DNA of 64,000 nt from the NCBI RefSeq assembly GCF_003060825.1, contig NZ_CP028922.1:697001-761000 (forward strand). Reading direction: 5' to 3'. Source of the stretch: Paenibacillus sp. CAA11. Lineage in GTDB: Bacteria > Bacillota > Bacilli > Paenibacillales > Paenibacillaceae. Below the pieces are notes generated by a model. That model had not been told where the DNA came from. It made no database searches and saw nothing but the letters and a program-made list of their open reading frames with translations. Positions 20,449 to 35,574 of the stretch are shown here, in pieces. The position numbers and the translations under genes were made by a program. Within the stretch, counting starts at the first letter, position 1. The number at the start of each line of letters is the position of its first letter.

Positions 20449-20478
20449 TTGACTTAGGTCATGGGTTGCTGGTAAATT
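20449..20478 (+). promoter_or_regulatory. Promoter of the mutS2-like leader RNA
   Basis: TTGACT (20449-20454) and TAAATT (20473-20478) are 18 bases apart, placing transcription start near 20485. This gives a 5' leader of about 340 bases before the MutS2-like start. The 280 bases between here and the LTA synthase gene hold no gene. Confidence 0.65.
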
Positions 20479-20510
20479 TAAGGTATCTTTCGCATAAAGG
20501 AGAAATTTTG

Positions 20511-20534
20511 ATGACGGTGGTTGTTCTTAACTAG
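20511..20534 (+). CDS. Leader peptide MTVVVLN
   Basis: Seven codons, ATG ACG GTG GTT GTT CTT AAC then TAG. AAAGGAGA lies seven bases upstream, one of the best ribosome sites in the window. The last codons form one arm of a 12-bp inverted repeat whose partner lies 100 bases downstream. A ribosome stalled here would free that partner arm. Too short to be a working protein; role inferred as a stall sensor. Confidence 0.7.
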   Translation: MTVVVLN

Positions 20535-20698
20535 TAACTTCATAAGACGCGTTTTGATGTTTAGGAAGGGATTTCGCTTTTTTTATGAAGGCGAAGCTCC
20601 TTAATTTCCTGTACCTCGAAACGGCTCTATGATGTAGTTAAGAACACGCGGGATATCATTGTCGCCTGATTGCGGCCTTGTATCGGAGCTTACCCAGT

Positions 20699-20727
20699 AA
20701 CCGTGCTGATTCTCAGCACGGTTTTTT
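20699..20727 (+). terminator. Leader terminator 1
   Basis: Perfect stem AACCGTGCTGA/TCAGCACGGTT with a three-base loop, followed by T6 (20722-20727). It lies inside the 5' leader, about 100 bases before the coding region, so it should cut off transcription unless antiterminated. Confidence 0.9.
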
Positions 20728-20758
20728 GGTATATCCGAATGCAGGCTTAAGACTCTAG

Positions 20759-20797
20759 GGGCAAGGAATGCTTGTGTGTATTCCTTGCCCTTTTTTT
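20759..20797 (+). terminator. Leader terminator 2
   Basis: GGGCAAGGAAT pairs with ATTCCTTGCCC across ten bases, followed by T7 (20791-20797). It ends less than 30 bases before the mutS2-like start codon. A second strong terminator in tandem, still upstream of the gene, is hard to explain except as regulation. Confidence 0.9.
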
Positions 20798-20824
20798 ATT
20801 TTAATGAGGGGGGCTTATGAACAA

Positions 20825-22891
20825 ATGGATGAGCAGACACTGCGCACCTTGGAGTATGGAGACATTATTGCGGAGGCATCGCGATATGCCGTGTCATATG
20901 AAGGAAGGAGAAGAATCAGCGAGCTTCAGCCGATGAGCAAGCTCAGTCAAATTGCAAGAAGCTTGGAGGAGACGGAGGAGGCCAAGCGCCTCCTCAGCAA
21001 AGGGGCAAGTGTGCCGCTGCCTTCATTAGAAGGGGTCGAGACCGTGGTGTCTCTGCTTGGCTCGGGCTATATGTTCGGAGAGCAGGATCTGACCTCGGTC
21101 GGCGTATTTTTACACAGCTGCACACAGCTTAAGAAGTATATGGCCGGTAAGCGGGAGATCGCTCCTGGCATCGCTTCTTTTGCCGCATCTTTGGAGGATC
21201 TGCCGGGGCTGCAGTCGGAAATTCTCCGCTGTATTCGTCATGGCCGTGTAACGAACGAGGCCAGTCGGGAACTGGAGAAGGTGCGCCGCAAAATGGAGCA
21301 GGTGAAGGAGCGAATCCAGAAGCGAATGCAGTCGATCATGTCCAGGTATAGCGGAATTCTTCAGGAGCAGCTGGTTAGCGTCCGCGCAGGGAGATATGTG
21401 ATCCCGGTGAGGAAGGAGTTTTACAAGCAGGTAAAAGGACGGGTGCATGATCAGTCGACCAGCGGCCAGACGGTGTTCGTGGAGCCGGAGGAGATCTCTG
21501 CCCTGCAGTCAGAGCTGGAAGGCTTGTCGGCAGAGGAAGGACGGGAGGAGGCCAAGGTGCTCTCCGCCTTGTCAGAGCGCGTGGAAGCCTCGGCGAGTGA
21601 GCTGAAACTGAATATTGACATTACGGGGACTTATGATTTCCTGTTTGCCAAAGCCAAGTATGCTGTATCCATCGGCGGGGAGCACGTCCAGGTGAATGAT
21701 ACGGGAGTTACCCGCATGCTGGAAGCTAGGCATCCGAAGCTGCTGGAGCGCATGGTGCCCTTGGATCTTGAGCTAAGTGCCGCAGCAAGAATCATGATTA
21801 TTACAGGGCCTAATACGGGCGGAAAGACGGTTGTGCTGAAGACACTGGGGCTGCTCACTTTAATGGTGCAGTCCGGACTGCTGGTTCCCGTACGGGCAGG
21901 GAGCTGCTTTGCCGTATTCGAGAATATCCGGGCTGTGGTTGGCGACGGACAAAGTCTGGAGCAGTCGCTGAGCACCTTCTCGGCCCAGATGGCAAGCCTC
22001 GTGCAGATGCTGAATACGGCCGACTCGCGAAGCCTGATGCTGATTGATGAGCTGGCGGCGGGTACGGACCCGGGGGAAGGCATGGCTCTCTCTGTGGCGA
22101 TCTTAGAAGAGCTAAGTCAGAGACAGGCAGCCGTGCTGGTGACGACGCACTTCAATGAGCTTAAGACCTTTGCAGCCCAGACACCAGGCTTCGTGAATGC
22201 CCGGATGGAATTCGACCCGGTCTCGTTAAGACCGCTATATCAGCTCACAATCGGTGAGGCGGGGCAGAGCTATGCACTGGAGATTGCGCAGCGCCTCGGA
22301 ATGTCGCAGCATGTGATCGAACGGTCCCGCAAGTGGATGACGGGGCGGATGGTTAAGGAGACCGCCCCGCAGAATAGCCCAAGCGCTGTCCCCGAGCCGC
22401 CTGTAGAACTCGAGCAAGGAGAGAAGGAGGCAGGGCAGCGGGCTGATAAAGGATGCCAAGAGGAGGAGGTGAAGACGTCGGTTTCTTTAGCCTCTAATAT
22501 AGAACATAGCCGCGATCCAGCTCCAGCTTCCACCAGGCAGGAATCTCGCCATCCAGTGAAAGGAGAGGACCAGAAGGAGGAACGGACCGCAGCTAAGAAA
22601 GGGTATGAGCCGGGTGACGCGGTGTGGGTAACCTCGCTGAACCGTCCCGGAATTGTCATCGAGCCTCAAGACCACCGCGGCACGCTGCTTGTGATGATCC
22701 AGAAGCAACAGATTCGCGTGAATCACAAACGGATCAAGCCATACATCTCCAAAAAGGAGCTGTATCCGGATGATTATGATCTTGATATTGTGTTCGAATC
22801 GAAAGAGAATCGTAAGAAGAAGAAGCAGATGTCTAAGCATCATATGGAAGGCATGCAAATCGTGAAGCCATCTGAAGACAGAAGCAAATAA
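20825..22891 (+). CDS. MutS2 paralogue lacking the Smr domain
   Basis: A 688-residue MutS-family ATPase. The MutS2-type core and coiled-coil region come first, then Walker A GPNTGGKT at about 328-335, Walker B LMLIDE near 405-409, the signature region STFSAQMASLVQM, and TTHFNELKTFA. An acidic low-complexity linker (about 515-590) leads to a KOW-like segment GDAVWVTSLNRPGIV. It ends in a lysine-rich tail instead of the Smr nuclease/ribosome-binding domain of ordinary MutS2 (about 785 residues). Bacterial MutS2 has been reported to act on collided ribosomes, so this paralogue may too; inference. Start ATG 20825 has GGGGGG upstream; the frame is open to 20768 but that overlaps terminator 2. Confidence 0.85.
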   Translation: MDEQTLRTLEYGDIIAEASRYAVSYEGRRRISELQPMSKLSQIARSLEETEEAKRLLSKGASVPLPSLEGVETVVSLLGSGYMFGEQDLTSVGVFLHSCTQLKKYMAGKREIAPGIASFAASLEDLPGLQSEILRCIRHGRVTNEASRELEKVRRKMEQVKERIQKRMQSIMSRYSGILQEQLVSVRAGRYVIPVRKEFYKQVKGRVHDQSTSGQTVFVEPEEISALQSELEGLSAEEGREEAKVLSALSERVEASASELKLNIDITGTYDFLFAKAKYAVSIGGEHVQVNDTGVTRMLEARHPKLLERMVPLDLELSAAARIMIITGPNTGGKTVVLKTLGLLTLMVQSGLLVPVRAGSCFAVFENIRAVVGDGQSLEQSLSTFSAQMASLVQMLNTADSRSLMLIDELAAGTDPGEGMALSVAILEELSQRQAAVLVTTHFNELKTFAAQTPGFVNARMEFDPVSLRPLYQLTIGEAGQSYALEIAQRLGMSQHVIERSRKWMTGRMVKETAPQNSPSAVPEPPVELEQGEKEAGQRADKGCQEEEVKTSVSLASNIEHSRDPAPASTRQESRHPVKGEDQKEERTAAKKGYEPGDAVWVTSLNRPGIVIEPQDHRGTLLVMIQKQQIRVNHKRIKPYISKKELYPDDYDLDIVFESKENRKKKKQMSKHHMEGMQIVKPSEDRSK

Positions 22892-29437: not shown

Positions 29438-30937
29438 ATGACAATGAATATGAAGCGAGGCTATATTCTGGCTGGGCTTCTGCTGTCGACGTTTTTGGCA
29501 GCAATTGAGGGCACCGTTATCGGTCCGGCCGGGCCTCGAATTGTTGGTGATTTGGGCGGTGTGGAGCTGCTTAGCTGGGTGTTTACAGCCTACTTGCTGA
29601 CGATGGCAGTGACAACGCCGATTTTTGGCAAGATCAGTGACTTATATGGAAGGAAGCCGGTATTTGTGATCGGCTCGGTGCTGTTTCTGGCTGGTTCCGT
29701 AATGTGTGGACTTGCACAAGGCATGGAGCAGCTGATTATCTTCCGTGCAATTCAAGGCATTGGCGCCGGAGGGCTCATTCCGGTTACCTTTACAATTATT
29801 GGGGATATTTATCCTATCGAAGAGCGGGGGAAGATTCAGGGCTATATCAGCTCAGTGTGGGGGATCTCCTCATTAGTAGGTCCGCTGCTTGGGGGGTATG
29901 TGGTGGATTCACTGAACTGGCGCTGGGTCTTCGGCTTCAACGTTCCCTTCGGCCTGCTGTCTTTGTACTTTATTCTTCGTTACTTCCATGAACAAATGGA
30001 GCGCCGCAAAGTTAAAATTGATTATGCCGGAGCAGTAACCTTTACGGTGGGGGTAGCGGCCTTGTTGTTCGGACTAGCTACCGGCGGGCAGCAGTTTGCC
30101 TGGAATTCGCCCATCCTGTTGACGGTGTTTGCTGTAGCCATTCTTATGCTGGCAGCCTTTTTTATTGTGGAGAATAAGGCAGAGGAGCCGCTTGTTCCGC
30201 TGAGGCTGTTCCGGATCCGGGACGTTGCCTATTCCAATGTGGCCAGCTTGCTGGCGAGTGCACTCTTGATTGGTCTGACTTCTTATTTTCCGCTGTGGGT
30301 TCAGGGTGTTCTCGGAGAGAATGCTACACGTTCGGGTCTGCTGCTTGCTCCGATGTCTGTCTGCTGGCTGGTAGGCTCAGTGATCGGCGGACGCTGGATT
30401 GTGAGCCGGGGCTCTCGCTTTACTTCGCTAATCGGACTCTTATTGATTGCGATAGGGGCCATCGGCCTTGTCTTTGTAACGGACGGCACGCCTGAGGCTA
30501 TGCTCATGGTATGGAACGCAGTTTACGGCCTTGGCTTCGGTCTGTCGTTCACAGTATTCACGATCATTGCTCAAAGCTCGGTGGGCTATCAGCTGCGGGG
30601 CGCGTCAACCGCTCTGAACTCCTTTGTCAAATCACTGGGCCAGACGATTGGCGTAGCGGTATTTGGGGCGCTGATTAACCAGCATATTGCGAAGGAGACG
30701 GCTTCAGGGAGCGTGATGGGCGTTAAGGTGACTCAAGAGGATGTGAACAGCCTGCTGTCACCTGAGAAGGTGCAGCAGCTCCCCTTAGAGCTGTGGAATA
30801 CGCTTCGTCATGTGCTTGAGAACGGTCTTCATGTGCTATATATTGTTATGGCTGCAATTGCGGCAGCTGGGGTCATCAGTGTGCTTGGACTGCGCAACCG
30901 TGCCCCTGAAGCGGAAGGGTCCAGAGAGGAAGCTTGA
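29438..30937 (+). CDS. DHA2-family multidrug efflux MFS transporter
   Basis: A 499-residue membrane protein with the motifs of the 14-helix EmrB/QacA group. Helix 1 ends with LAAIEGTVIGPAGPRI, motif A reads GKISDLYGRKPVF, and motif C is GAGGLIPVTFTIIGD followed by GPLLGGYVVD. It would export drugs in exchange for protons. The start follows GGTGG at proper distance. A promoter-like TATAAT lies about 70 bases upstream. No linked regulator on this side; the MarR gene at 33527 is separated by other genes. Confidence 0.88.
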   Translation: MTMNMKRGYILAGLLLSTFLAAIEGTVIGPAGPRIVGDLGGVELLSWVFTAYLLTMAVTTPIFGKISDLYGRKPVFVIGSVLFLAGSVMCGLAQGMEQLIIFRAIQGIGAGGLIPVTFTIIGDIYPIEERGKIQGYISSVWGISSLVGPLLGGYVVDSLNWRWVFGFNVPFGLLSLYFILRYFHEQMERRKVKIDYAGAVTFTVGVAALLFGLATGGQQFAWNSPILLTVFAVAILMLAAFFIVENKAEEPLVPLRLFRIRDVAYSNVASLLASALLIGLTSYFPLWVQGVLGENATRSGLLLAPMSVCWLVGSVIGGRWIVSRGSRFTSLIGLLLIAIGAIGLVFVTDGTPEAMLMVWNAVYGLGFGLSFTVFTIIAQSSVGYQLRGASTALNSFVKSLGQTIGVAVFGALINQHIAKETASGSVMGVKVTQEDVNSLLSPEKVQQLPLELWNTLRHVLENGLHVLYIVMAAIAAAGVISVLGLRNRAPEAEGSREEA

Positions 30938-31615: not shown

Positions 31616-31908
31616 GAGCGTGCGCCCGGCATGGGCGATAACTCGGCGGTGAAAGTCCGCTACAGGCTTGGCAGTAGGAACTGTTAGCTGAAGGCAAGGG
31701 TGTCCGCCGCGAGGCGGAATCTGAAGGAAGCCGGAGGCAAACCCTCGGTCTGACGAACAGAAATCACATAGAAGGCATCATGGGACGGACGAGCTTGCAC
31801 TACAAAGCAAAGTCCAATACTGCCCGAATCCCATGGTGTAAATGTGGCAGATAGATGAGGGGAAGGTTATCGCTCTTACCCGGGGAGGTCTCACAGACGA
31901 CAAGTAGG

Positions 31909-31987
31909 AAAAAAAAAACCGAAAGACGGAGTAAAGCTTGCTGTGAGAAGTCAGCAGAGGCCATAGTACCCGGAAGGTTTTTTTTTT
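31909..31987 (+). repeat. A10/T10 paired arms inside the intron
   Basis: AAAAAAAAAACC (31909-31920) and GGTTTTTTTTTT (31976-31987) are perfectly complementary over 12 bases, about 55 bases apart. They probably form a helix of an intron RNA domain ahead of the ORF. Homopolymers this long could also cause slippage. Confidence 0.6.
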
Positions 31988-32045
31988 CGGGGAAGGGCCG
32001 AACAATCGTAAGTCTCGAGTACATACCGAAAGGAGAGCTGACGCG

Positions 32046-33446
32046 ATGAAAGCAGAATACCGAAAGGGCTACCTGCAAAGGGATAGCGTGGAACGCGAAG
32101 AGCATGCGGGAGTGCGGAGCGCCGGTACTCGGGAACGTAAAGAAAGAGGCGGTGCAACAGACCTGCTGGAGCAGATTCTGGACAGAGACAATCTGAACAG
32201 AGCCTACAAACAGGTCAAACGCAACCATGGAGCGCCAGGAATCGACGGAATGACCGTAGAAGACGCGCTACCCTGGCTGCAGGAACATAGAGACGAGCTG
32301 TTGCAAAAGATCCGGGAAGGCAGATACAAGCCCAGCCCAGTACGGCGCAAGGAAATTCCCAAAGCAGATGGAAGCGGAGTACGGAAGCTTGGCATACCCA
32401 CGGTCGTAGACCGAGTGATTCAGCAGGCAGTCGCCCAGCAGCTCCAGCCCCTGTTCGAGCCGCTCTTCTCGGAGGGAAGCTATGGCTACCGCCCCGGTCG
32501 GAGCGCACAACAGGCCATTCGCAAGGTGAAAGACTATGCAGAACAGGGATACGGCTACGCAGTAGAAATCGACCTCTCCAAATACTTCGACACGCTGAAT
32601 CATGAGCTGCTTATGCATCTTTTGCGCAAACAAATTCAGGACAGACGCGTAACCGAACTGATTAAGAGATACCTGAAAAGTGGGGTTATGGAGAACGGGG
32701 TGCACTGCAAAACAGAAGAAGGCTCCCCTCAGGGAGGCCCCCTGTCGCCGCTTCTGGCGAACATCTACCTGAACGAATTTGACCAAGAGATGAAAGGCCG
32801 CGGAGTGAACGTCATCCGCTATGCGGACGATATTGTGGTGCTTGCCAAAAGCAAACGGGCAGCGGTGCGGCTACTGGAATCCTGCGGAAAGTACCTGGAG
32901 ACCAAACTGAGACTCCAGATCAATACGCAGAAAAGTAAGGTCGGTAGCGTAGTGGCTCGAAAGCACTTCAAATTTCTCGGCTTTGCCCTGGGAAAGAACA
33001 AGAACGGCATGTATATCCGTGCCCATGGACAATCCCTCGCAAAAGCGAAGAAGAAGTTGAAAGAACTCACAAGTCGCAGCCAGGGCAGAAATGTTCGCCA
33101 AGTCATGGAAAAGGTAAAAGTCTACATTCGGGGATGGATTGGTTACTACTATGTGGCCGACATGAAACGGATCCTGCAAAGCTGGAGCGAATGGTTGCGA
33201 AGACGACTGCGGATGTACATCTGGAAACAGTGGAAAAAGCCGCGAACAAAAGTACAAAACCTGCGGAAGCTGGGGATACCGGAATGGCAGGCTTACCAGT
33301 GGGGCAATTCCCGTCTCGGGTACTGGCGCATCGCCGGAAGTCCAGTGTTGTCTCGTTCCATAACAAACAAAAAGCTCGTACAGGCAGGATATTATGACTT
33401 TCCTGCGCAATACGAGCGTTTACGTAAATTGCACTTATGCGGTTGA
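32046..33446 (+). CDS. ltrA: Group II intron reverse transcriptase/maturase
   Basis: A 466-residue intron-encoded protein. The reverse transcriptase domain carries the palm motifs GSYGYRPGRSAQQAI, EIDLSKYFDTLNHELL, QGGPLSPLLANIYLNEFD and the catalytic YADD at residues 259-262. The maturase X domain follows (about 330-440; IRGWIGYYYVADMKRIL). The C-terminal part lacks an HNH endonuclease, as in class C introns, which target hairpins without cleaving the second strand. ATG 32046 follows AAAGGAGAG. All catalytic residues are present, so it is probably active. Confidence 0.93.
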   Translation: MKAEYRKGYLQRDSVEREEHAGVRSAGTRERKERGGATDLLEQILDRDNLNRAYKQVKRNHGAPGIDGMTVEDALPWLQEHRDELLQKIREGRYKPSPVRRKEIPKADGSGVRKLGIPTVVDRVIQQAVAQQLQPLFEPLFSEGSYGYRPGRSAQQAIRKVKDYAEQGYGYAVEIDLSKYFDTLNHELLMHLLRKQIQDRRVTELIKRYLKSGVMENGVHCKTEEGSPQGGPLSPLLANIYLNEFDQEMKGRGVNVIRYADDIVVLAKSKRAAVRLLESCGKYLETKLRLQINTQKSKVGSVVARKHFKFLGFALGKNKNGMYIRAHGQSLAKAKKKLKELTSRSQGRNVRQVMEKVKVYIRGWIGYYYVADMKRILQSWSEWLRRRLRMYIWKQWKKPRTKVQNLRKLGIPEWQAYQWGNSRLGYWRIAGSPVLSRSITNKKLVQAGYYDFPAQYERLRKLHLCG

Positions 33447-33526
33447 ACCGCCGTATACCGAACGGTACGTACGGTGGTGTGAGAGGTCGGCTACTCATCT
33501 AATGAATAGCCTCCTACTCGATTTCA

Positions 33527-34248: not shown

Positions 34249-35574
34249 GTGCAACAACAAACCGCGAAGCGCCCGGAATCTTTGCTGAAGAATCGGGCAT
34301 ATCTGGCACTGGTGGGGTCACAGCTTATCTCAAATCTAGGAGACTGGCTGCATATTTTGGCGCTATTGACTTTGTTTGGGCTGAAATGGCAGGCGACGCC
34401 GTGGCAAATTACCGGGGCTACACTTTGCATAATGCTTCCCACCTTGCTCGGCGGGCCTCTGGCCGGCATGCTTGCTGACCGGGTTGAGCGAAAGAAGCTG
34501 ATGATTTTATCGGATGGAGTTCGGGTAATCCTTGTGCTTGGCATGGTGTTTGTTCAGGATATATGGCAAATGTATGGGCTTCTTGTGGCAAAAGGGTTAT
34601 TTGATGTTATCTTTTCCCCGGCAAAAAGTGGTAAGATAAAGGAAATTGTCGAACGGGATCAACTCGATCAGGCGGTCTCTTATAGCGCGATTATCGAGCA
34701 AGGGAGCAAAATCGTTGGCCCGGCTTTAGGCGGGCTGTTAACCGCTGCTTTTGGCATCGGCGCATGCTTTCTAATCGACGCAGGCTCATTCCTGTTGTCC
34801 GGGCTGCTGCTGATCCTGGTGCCTGGAAGAAGGAATGGCGGGACCCGAATGGCGAATGAGCGGTCTGACGGTGCAGATCAGAGAGAGGGATTTTGGCGTG
34901 AGCTCTCTGCGGGGATGCGGACGATTGCTGAAATTCCAGTGATTGCGTATGGTTTGCTTGCGCTAGCTCTAGTGCTTCTGGTGCTGCAAATTGCGGATTC
35001 GCAGACGGTGGTGTTGTTCCGGGAGATCCCCGGAATTCCTGAAGATTTGCTCGGCTGGTGCATCGCATTAAGCGGTGCGGGTACCCTGCTGGCTGCGGGA
35101 TTGGTTAAGCTGTTCCGGGGCTTCTCTCCCTTGGCCAAGATGGGCGCTGGGGGAACTGTGATGGGTGCCGTCTTTGCAGGAGCGGGGCTGATGGCGGAAT
35201 ATGGACCGTATGGGTCGGCGGGGCATGTCTTGATGGCTTGTACCTTCTTCGCGGCGGGTCTCGGTGCGGGCATGACCTTCATTCCGTTTCAGATCGAGCT
35301 TCAGCGCCGGACACCGGAACGATTGACTGGCCGTGTGTTCGGCACCGTCAGCAGTGTCACCTCAGCAGCAGCTCTGCTCGGGCCGGTCTGCGGCGGGTAT
35401 CTCGTAACGACATTTGGAGCTTCGCCTGCTTTCCTGATTTCAGGCTCTTTGATGGGGTTGACGGGGCTTGCACTGCTAATGCTGAAGCAGAGCATTATGA
35501 AGAGGGACCTGAAGCAGGCGGAAAACATGTGTAATGAAGGAGGAGCTGCGGGAGGTGCGGCTGTAGAGAGCTGA
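34249..35574 (+). CDS. MFS transporter (MFS_3/EntS-like)
   Basis: A 441-residue, about twelve-helix major facilitator protein of the EntS/TetV-like group. Motif-A region reads GPLAGMLADRVERKKLMILS. The conserved FSPAKSGKIKEIV and IIEQGSKIVGPALGG segments after helix 4 are typical. The start is a GTG at 34249 with GGGATGGAG and GAAGGAG upstream, the only plausible one before the hydrophobic segment. It is followed by an ATP-binding cassette gene 15 bases later, and the three genes to 37598 may be one operon. Substrate unknown. Confidence 0.82.
   Translation: MQQQTAKRPESLLKNRAYLALVGSQLISNLGDWLHILALLTLFGLKWQATPWQITGATLCIMLPTLLGGPLAGMLADRVERKKLMILSDGVRVILVLGMVFVQDIWQMYGLLVAKGLFDVIFSPAKSGKIKEIVERDQLDQAVSYSAIIEQGSKIVGPALGGLLTAAFGIGACFLIDAGSFLLSGLLLILVPGRRNGGTRMANERSDGADQREGFWRELSAGMRTIAEIPVIAYGLLALALVLLVLQIADSQTVVLFREIPGIPEDLLGWCIALSGAGTLLAAGLVKLFRGFSPLAKMGAGGTVMGAVFAGAGLMAEYGPYGSAGHVLMACTFFAAGLGAGMTFIPFQIELQRRTPERLTGRVFGTVSSVTSAAALLGPVCGGYLVTTFGASPAFLISGSLMGLTGLALLMLKQSIMKRDLKQAENMCNEGGAAGGAAVES

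Follow-up and report, generated by a model that had tools for sequence, protein, structure and literature searches.

The 64,000-nucleotide stretch of Paenibacillus sp. CAA11 analyzed here (contig NZ_CP028922.1, positions 697,001 to 761,000 of the forward strand; this whole stretch is hereafter called the window) encodes a paralogue of MutS2 that lacks the Smr domain, and the gene is preceded by a long leader region that we consider a candidate ribosome-mediated transcription attenuator. An initial annotation, made from the sequence alone, had described in this region a promoter, a seven-codon leader open reading frame (ORF) encoding MTVVVLN with the Shine-Dalgarno (SD) sequence AAAGGAGA seven bases upstream, a perfect 12-bp inverted repeat whose first arm is the end of that leader, and two tandem terminators. 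A check of the window sequence found all of these elements where they had been placed, on the + strand ahead of the MutS2-paralogue gene. The features of the locus are:

20449..20478, + strand: extended -10, sigma-A-type promoter, TTGACT-18-TGGTAAATT (consensus scan)
20496..20503, + strand: SD sequence of the leader, AAAGGAGA, seven bases 5' of the ATG at 20511
20511..20534, + strand: leader ORF, MTVVVLN and stop, consensus M-[S/T/L]-[V/A/G]-x-V-L-N
20522..20533, + strand: arm 1 of the long repeat, the final codons of the leader (sequence and alignments)
20536..20544, + strand: conserved post-stop motif AAYTYCATA (alignment)
20578..20584, + strand: TTNTTT, possible NusG-dependent pause motif between the arms, 56-57 nt 5' of arm 2
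20635..20646, + strand: arm 2 of the long repeat (sequence and alignments)
20641..20651, + strand: antiterminator strand 1, the 3' part of arm 2 and its flank, with partner 20701-20713 when the leader is masked
20699..20723, + strand: intrinsic terminator T1, 11 pairs, whose 5' arm and loop are antiterminator strand 2
20757..20792, + strand: intrinsic terminator T2, 15 pairs (terminator scan)
20806..20813, + strand: SD sequence of the MutS2-paralogue gene, GAGGGGGG
20825..22891, + strand: Smr-less MutS2 paralogue, 688 aa, with core/lever/clamp, ATPase, linker, putative KOW-like barrel and its own C-terminal tail
22610..22753, + strand: putative KOW/SH3-like (MSSS) barrel of the paralogue (weak MSSS match, predicted strands)
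22754..22861, + strand: conserved C-terminal tail (LYPEDYDLDIVFESKENRKK...KHVEGL) in the place of Smr (alignment of paralogues)

The promoter comprises TTGACT (20449-20454) and TAAATT (20473-20478) with an 18-nt spacer and a TG preceding the -10 element, and many, though not all, of the congeners aligned have sequences resembling TTGAC and TGGTAAATT. The perfect 12-bp repeat (20522-20533 and 20635-20646) has the core GTTCTTAACTA in one arm and TAGTTAAGAAC in the other. Between 20200 and 21200, counting both strands, there are five terminator-like sites, compared to 1.0 (standard deviation 0.8) in shuffles, and five promoter-like sites, compared to 1.7. The open frame of the paralogue begins at 20768, within T2, and its start codon is likely the ATG at 20825 after GAGGGGGG. 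No family of Rfam 15 (T-box, riboswitches, and described leaders) matches the element above its gathering score, either in the window or at 13 further loci.

An orthologue of the paralogue is encoded in 34 of 40 congeneric genomes (E below 1e-140). The initial annotation had made its reading depend on conservation upstream of orthologues, and we found leader, repeat and terminators conserved there: of the 33 congeneric orthologues with DNA available upstream, 32 are preceded by ATGNNNNNNNNNGTTCTTAACTA, at a distance of 323-454 nt from the matched protein start (the 34th orthologue sits at a contig edge), and the leader pattern is absent from all six congeners lacking an orthologue. Across the family, the pattern occurs in 177 of 394 genomes, and a reversed-pattern control had 0 matches in every genome. 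A protein search of named genomes with a single paralogue gave no match and was replaced by a pattern scan, which recovered at least 119 stretches, chiefly from Paenibacillus, Brevibacillus and Saccharibacillus; single matches among those listed include a Bacillus, Ectobacillus, Shimazuella, Acetivibrio and a Clostridiaceae metagenome-assembled genome. Covariance models take the leader beyond this family, into others of the same class and phylum. At E up to 0.01, model R1 matches 83 of 398 class genomes (25 of 145 genera); at E up to 0.001, model R2 matches 19 of 398 phylum genomes (14 of 267 genera), and it has one match in the genome of CAA11. Antisense model matches were taken as noise due to the palindromic arms, and L261 was judged a false match (GerA downstream, leader unlike the others). 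No exact match was found in viral contigs. Among plasmids, one record, from Paenibacillus, carries the element 5' of a gene annotated “DNA mismatch repair protein MutS”. On this 115-kb plasmid (pHD01; L362), a tyrosine recombinase gene lies roughly 1 kb from the attenuator and the MutS-annotated gene, separated from them by a single DinB-family gene.

For the comparative analysis we parsed 155 distinct pattern matches, 148 of which have arm 2; two (L106 and L165) fit the search pattern but lack a leader start. The start codon, SD and VLN are conserved in an alignment of 50 sequences (A1, chosen from 66 representatives picked from 113), and the SD is kept as GGAG or GGGG across alignments. The AAYTYCATA motif belonged to the search pattern, so its conservation is partly selected for; it is also present in orthologues retrieved by protein. 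At least two terminator-like sites were found in 119 of 148 relatives.

We then examined pairing in the element. The flank on the 3' side of arm 2 base-pairs with T1, taking up its 5' arm and its loop; compensatory changes accompany this pairing, and the antiterminator thus formed had not been described in the initial annotation. A simple finder recognized T1 in 126 of the 148 sequences, and for these the antiterminator duplex comes to -10.59 with each sequence’s own partner and -9.90 with swapped partners (0 of 5,000 permutations as low), compared to -6.47 with shuffled flanks and -7.1 to -8.4 in control windows. Pairing holds in 84.0% of the antiterminator cells of the 50-sequence alignment, against 20-45% when the strands are slid, and double-change cells number 10, against 3.2 in shuffles (0 of 500 as high); for T1 they number 27, against 10.8. 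The arm 1:arm 2 cells of the same alignment are 98.7% paired without covariation, a figure that is uninformative alone because exact arms were a search criterion. In 41 divergent sequences hand-picked from model matches (A3; alignment A4 holds 31 of these 41), the arms are 94.6% paired with six double-change cells in four pairs, and counting the repeat and T1 jointly gives 58 double-change cells, compared to 18.6 in shuffles, 52 of the 58 within T1. Taken singly, eight of 19 divergent leaders (L320, L322, L325, L321, L280, L278, L291, and L260) have arm pairing that at most one of 300 shuffles equals, and in two more (L264 and L327) 2 and 4 of 300 shuffles are as low.

Folding with the leader arm masked, a check suggested by the initial annotation, exposes the alternative structure. 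Masking kept the leader and a few bases behind it single-stranded, mimicking a stalled ribosome, and was applied to 125 transcripts ended just past the T1 loop. Without masking, arm 1:arm 2 averages 11.2 pairs and the antiterminator 0.60; with masking, the antiterminator averages 8.05 pairs. It has at least four pairs in 106 of 125 masked transcripts, compared to 5 of 125 unmasked, and in the masked window fold it pairs 20641-20651 with 20701-20713. A TTNTTT motif occurs 75-20 nt 5' of arm 2 in 91 of 148 leaders (25.9 expected), most commonly at -36 to -34 relative to arm 2 (64 occurrences).

These structures suggest how the switch might operate. During normal translation, the ribosome would complete the seven-codon leader and depart; free arm 1 would then pair with arm 2, and with arm 2 occupied T1 would form, such that transcription would halt at T1 or T2. 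A ribosome stalled within the leader, which we infer to be the trigger, would instead cover arm 1, leaving arm 2 and its 3' flank free to capture the 5' arm and the loop of T1. RNA polymerase could then continue and the MutS2 paralogue would be made. The TTNTTT pause before arm 2 may detain the polymerase until the ribosome is positioned.

MutS2 has been recognized as a ribosome splitter only recently. Scans of the paralogue, which used a 685-aa fragment from 20834 rather than the full 688 aa, matched the MutS2 model TIGR01069 at 592 bits (cut-off 400), covering model positions 4-513 of 790 alone, and no Smr match was found in any of 24 paralogues scanned, in agreement with the Smr-less MutS2 assignment of the initial annotation. 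The paralogue profile aligns with Bacillus subtilis MutS2 as far as residue 683 of 785. The MSSS match (21.1 bits) is under the Pfam cut-off of 26.8, and beta strands are predicted at fragment residues 596-638. Apart from this weak match, Pfam and NCBIfam returned only MutS-type families and the related KamC ATPase at E ≤ 0.001, and no HflX-type GTPase was found in the protein at that threshold. Judged from these matches, the paralogue is predicted to keep the ATPase/clamp core of ribosome-splitting MutS2 without Smr. CAA11 encodes three MutS-type ATPases in its genome: one in a 935-aa frame that is MutS by size, one full-length MutS2 and the Smr-less paralogue. Canonical MutS2 is likewise present alongside the paralogue in the genomes checked, and the paralogues cluster apart from it in a tree of 59 hand-picked proteins built by a quick method without bootstrap. 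A third, divergent MutS2-like group was seen in three congeners (L038, L039, and L040), where the leader is absent from the preceding 900 nt.

The same leader also precedes other genes, among them bpsA, which encodes a branched-polyamine synthase. The first ORFs 3' of the 155 pattern matches include 141 that are translatable, namely 106 MutS2 paralogues, 27 BpsA-type proteins (PF01861) and eight others, among them GNATs and a transposase; because the loci fetched favored second leader copies, the ratio of 106 to 27 is not a frequency. All five members of the BpsA cluster that were scanned have a BpsA_C domain (135.8-150.6 bits, cut-off 27). Among 40 hand-chosen R1 loci, 25 carry MutS2 paralogues, of which two are in split or shifted frames and one is short, and 10 carry BpsA, in one case behind a decayed leader; the rest are single cases of MFS plus GNAT, GNAT, an APH-like gene, a false match and a locus with no gene assigned. 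The 11 R2 loci, those of the 19 R2-matched genomes that earlier searches had not given, comprise five MutS2 paralogues, three two-gene ABC exporters (one genus), one serine-hydrolase-like gene, one unclear case and one ABC-F gene with a ribosomal-protection match (463 bits, cut-off 380). Besides bpsA, then, the leader rarely precedes genes for ribosomal-protection-like ABC-F proteins, exporters, GNATs and APH-like kinases. By all computed signs, the attenuator controls the MutS2 paralogue and a few other genes, which would fit a response to translation inhibitors. In one congener (G008), the leader, bpsA, two more ORFs and a divergent MutS2 paralogue are collinear on the minus strand, perhaps as one operon (L331).

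We therefore interpret the 5' region as a ribosome-mediated transcription attenuator of the MutS2 paralogue, which most likely rescues ribosomes blocked by translation inhibitors, and we give this reading as a whole a probability of roughly three in four. A rescue or resistance role, as in the initial annotation, is proposed from homology and regulon. The attenuator had already been suggested in the initial annotation, and the case for it is strengthened by the covarying antiterminator and by the occurrence of the same leader before a ribosomal-protection-like ABC-F gene and exporters. Several observations weigh against this reading. Once its 3' arm has been transcribed, T1 forms at equilibrium with a mean probability of 0.92 masked and 0.94 unmasked; it prevails in both states, and the switch must therefore be kinetic. 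Three antiterminator pairs with a double change and nine further pair types are not unusual (60 and 56 of 500 shuffles as high, respectively), two outer antiterminator pairs are open in 15 and 21 of the 50 sequences, and in nine of the 19 divergent leaders (L329, L283, L324, L298, L319, L273, L277, L282, and L326) arm pairing is reached by 11 to 145 of 300 shuffles. Passage of T2 lacks a clear route, and its complementarity to arm 2 or the T1 3' arm is weak. The orthologue of G008 has no leader in the preceding 900 nt, the paralogues of G702 and G455 have no R1 match of their own, and the KOW/MSSS match, below its Pfam cut-off, reaches E ≤ 0.01 in just 3 of 24 members. Finally, Smr deletion strongly lowers the binding of MutS2 to collided ribosomes (PMC10897456), so a form without Smr must be recruited otherwise.

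The paralogue could alternatively be made via the switch and yet act on DNA, in anti-recombination or repair. Membership in the MutS family, the mismatch-repair annotation of the plasmid copy and the suggestion that MutS2 suppresses homologous recombination (PMC3200294) would fit such a role. However, the window protein has no match to MutS domain I or II, its best matches among solved structures are MutS2, one of them bound to a collided disome, and both control by a leader ORF and the ribosomal-protection-like ABC-F gene under the same leader point to translation; we consider action on DNA unlikely.

Other possibilities concern what the leader senses. Among 151 leaders with a start four codons before GTT, codon 2 encodes Ser in 99, Leu in 31 and Thr in 17, and codon 3 encodes Val, Ala or Gly in 142. 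Since neither codon falls within the repeat and synonymous alternatives are in use, selection on the early leader peptide is plausible. This bears on whether a ribosome waiting at the stop codon, where arm 1 ends and would be covered, makes the same attenuator a sensor of slow termination and not of elongation drugs. That is quite unlikely in our view, as the early peptide seems to be under selection, with Ser/Thr preferred at codon 2 and small residues at codon 3, and stop codons vary, with TGA in one leader and TAA or TAG in others. At L263, L267, L284 and similar loci in several genera, CCGT-AATTTCAT-ACGG can form a small extra hairpin directly 3' of the leader stop.

The attenuator might also sense scarce charged tRNA (Val, Leu or Asn), as the leaders of amino-acid operons do. 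Nearly all leaders have V-L-N at codons 5-7, and the GTT of arm 1 never varies in either alignment (50 and 41 sequences), the first of which was found by that motif. However, nine of the 19 divergent leaders checked have codons 6-7 altered to Q, H, I, K, R or S (C-termini VQN, VHN, VIN, VLK, VLR, VLS or VQI), and five of these nine clearly retain arm pairing (no more than 4 of 300 shuffles as low). Codons 6-7 thus seem to follow the RNA pairing, which would make amino-acid starvation a less likely signal; in addition, the downstream genes identified are not biosynthetic for Val, Leu or Asn. A charged-tRNA sensor is accordingly given even less credence than a termination sensor. Chloramphenicol favors nascent chains in which the penultimate residue is Ala or, to a lesser degree, Ser or Thr (PMC11832420); as 116 of the 151 leaders encode Ser or Thr at their second codon, the inducer may be a drug acting on the peptidyl-transferase centre. 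That the element is only a conserved untranslated region whose strong terminators close an upstream transcript, as the formation of T1 in both states would allow, is very improbable given the conserved SD and leader ORF, the covarying and mutually exclusive helices and the single architecture before unrelated genes.

A broader version of the attenuator reading is more tentative, with chances that we would set slightly below even: one ancient attenuator class would command a translation-stress regulon of Bacillota, its two main outputs, both so far unrecognized as tolerance factors, being a dedicated Smr-less “stress MutS2” for splitting ribosomes blocked by inhibitors and a synthase of branched-chain polyamines for remodeling the ionic environment of the ribosome, and the T1 3' arm, once the antiterminator has released it, may open T2 in a two-terminator relay. 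For the 105 sequences in which both T1 and T2 were recognized, the T2:arm 2 duplex comes to -8.68 with own and -8.33 with swapped partners (permutation fraction 0.010; shuffled -6.95), and the T1 3' arm with the T2 loop and 3' arm to -7.25 and -6.91 (0.003; shuffled -5.77). These complementarities are weak and several region pairs were tried together, such that they are hints only of a relay. The shared leader would tie branched polyamines to translation stress, a link not found among the papers listed in the literature searched (titles and the starts of abstracts, with few subscription papers and no preprints).

If inducible, a second, separately evolved form of MutS2 in many Bacillota would parallel the pair HflX/HflXr and add a chromosomal route to survive ribosome-targeting drugs. 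The covariance models built here are a handle for finding further response genes, and genes annotated as mismatch repair (one seen) could be re-annotated.

Elsewhere in the window, a group II intron at 31703-33522 is matched by three Rfam models and contains a reverse-transcriptase-like ORF (32046-33446, named by eye). It is flanked by ORFs at 29438-30937 and 34249-35574 that appear MFS-transporter-like by eye.

HflX is a GTPase unrelated to MutS2, and the bmrCD leader is much longer than the seven-codon leader described here. The element contains a mutually exclusive anti-antiterminator, antiterminator and intrinsic terminator, with T1 forming at equilibrium even when the leader is masked, and a short, predicted-translatable leader ORF with an SD that is conserved across species. 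A literature search that covered few subscription papers and no preprints found no paper pairing MutS2 with transcription attenuation and, for MutS2 together with leader peptides and attenuation, just a review on Pseudomonas, and the passages available on genes controlled by upstream ORFs (uORFs) do not mention MutS. In B. subtilis, the bmrCD attenuator (PMC4191407) is similar in that ribosome-mediated attenuation precedes an ABC exporter (compare L321, L323, and L328). The paralogue differs from B. subtilis MutS2 (PMC10897456) in lacking Smr, having its own C-terminal tail, forming a separate group and coexisting with canonical MutS2. HflXr of Listeria (lmo0762; PMC6310831) is likewise a paralogue of a ribosome-splitting factor under transcription attenuation via a small leader ORF; however, its leader is 14 aa with RLR, whereas the present one is 7 aa, M-x-x-x-V-L-N, without RLR. 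The vmlR attenuator of B. subtilis (PMC9226507) shares a uORF within the anti-antiterminator, an antiterminator, an intrinsic terminator and a NusG TTNTTT pause, but has its own uORF (MIN), a single attenuating terminator, an SD-sequestering hairpin and an ABC-F gene. By analogy, the leader system probably works like those of HflXr and vmlR while belonging to neither by sequence, and we consider it to be a new sequence family of ribosome-mediated attenuator.

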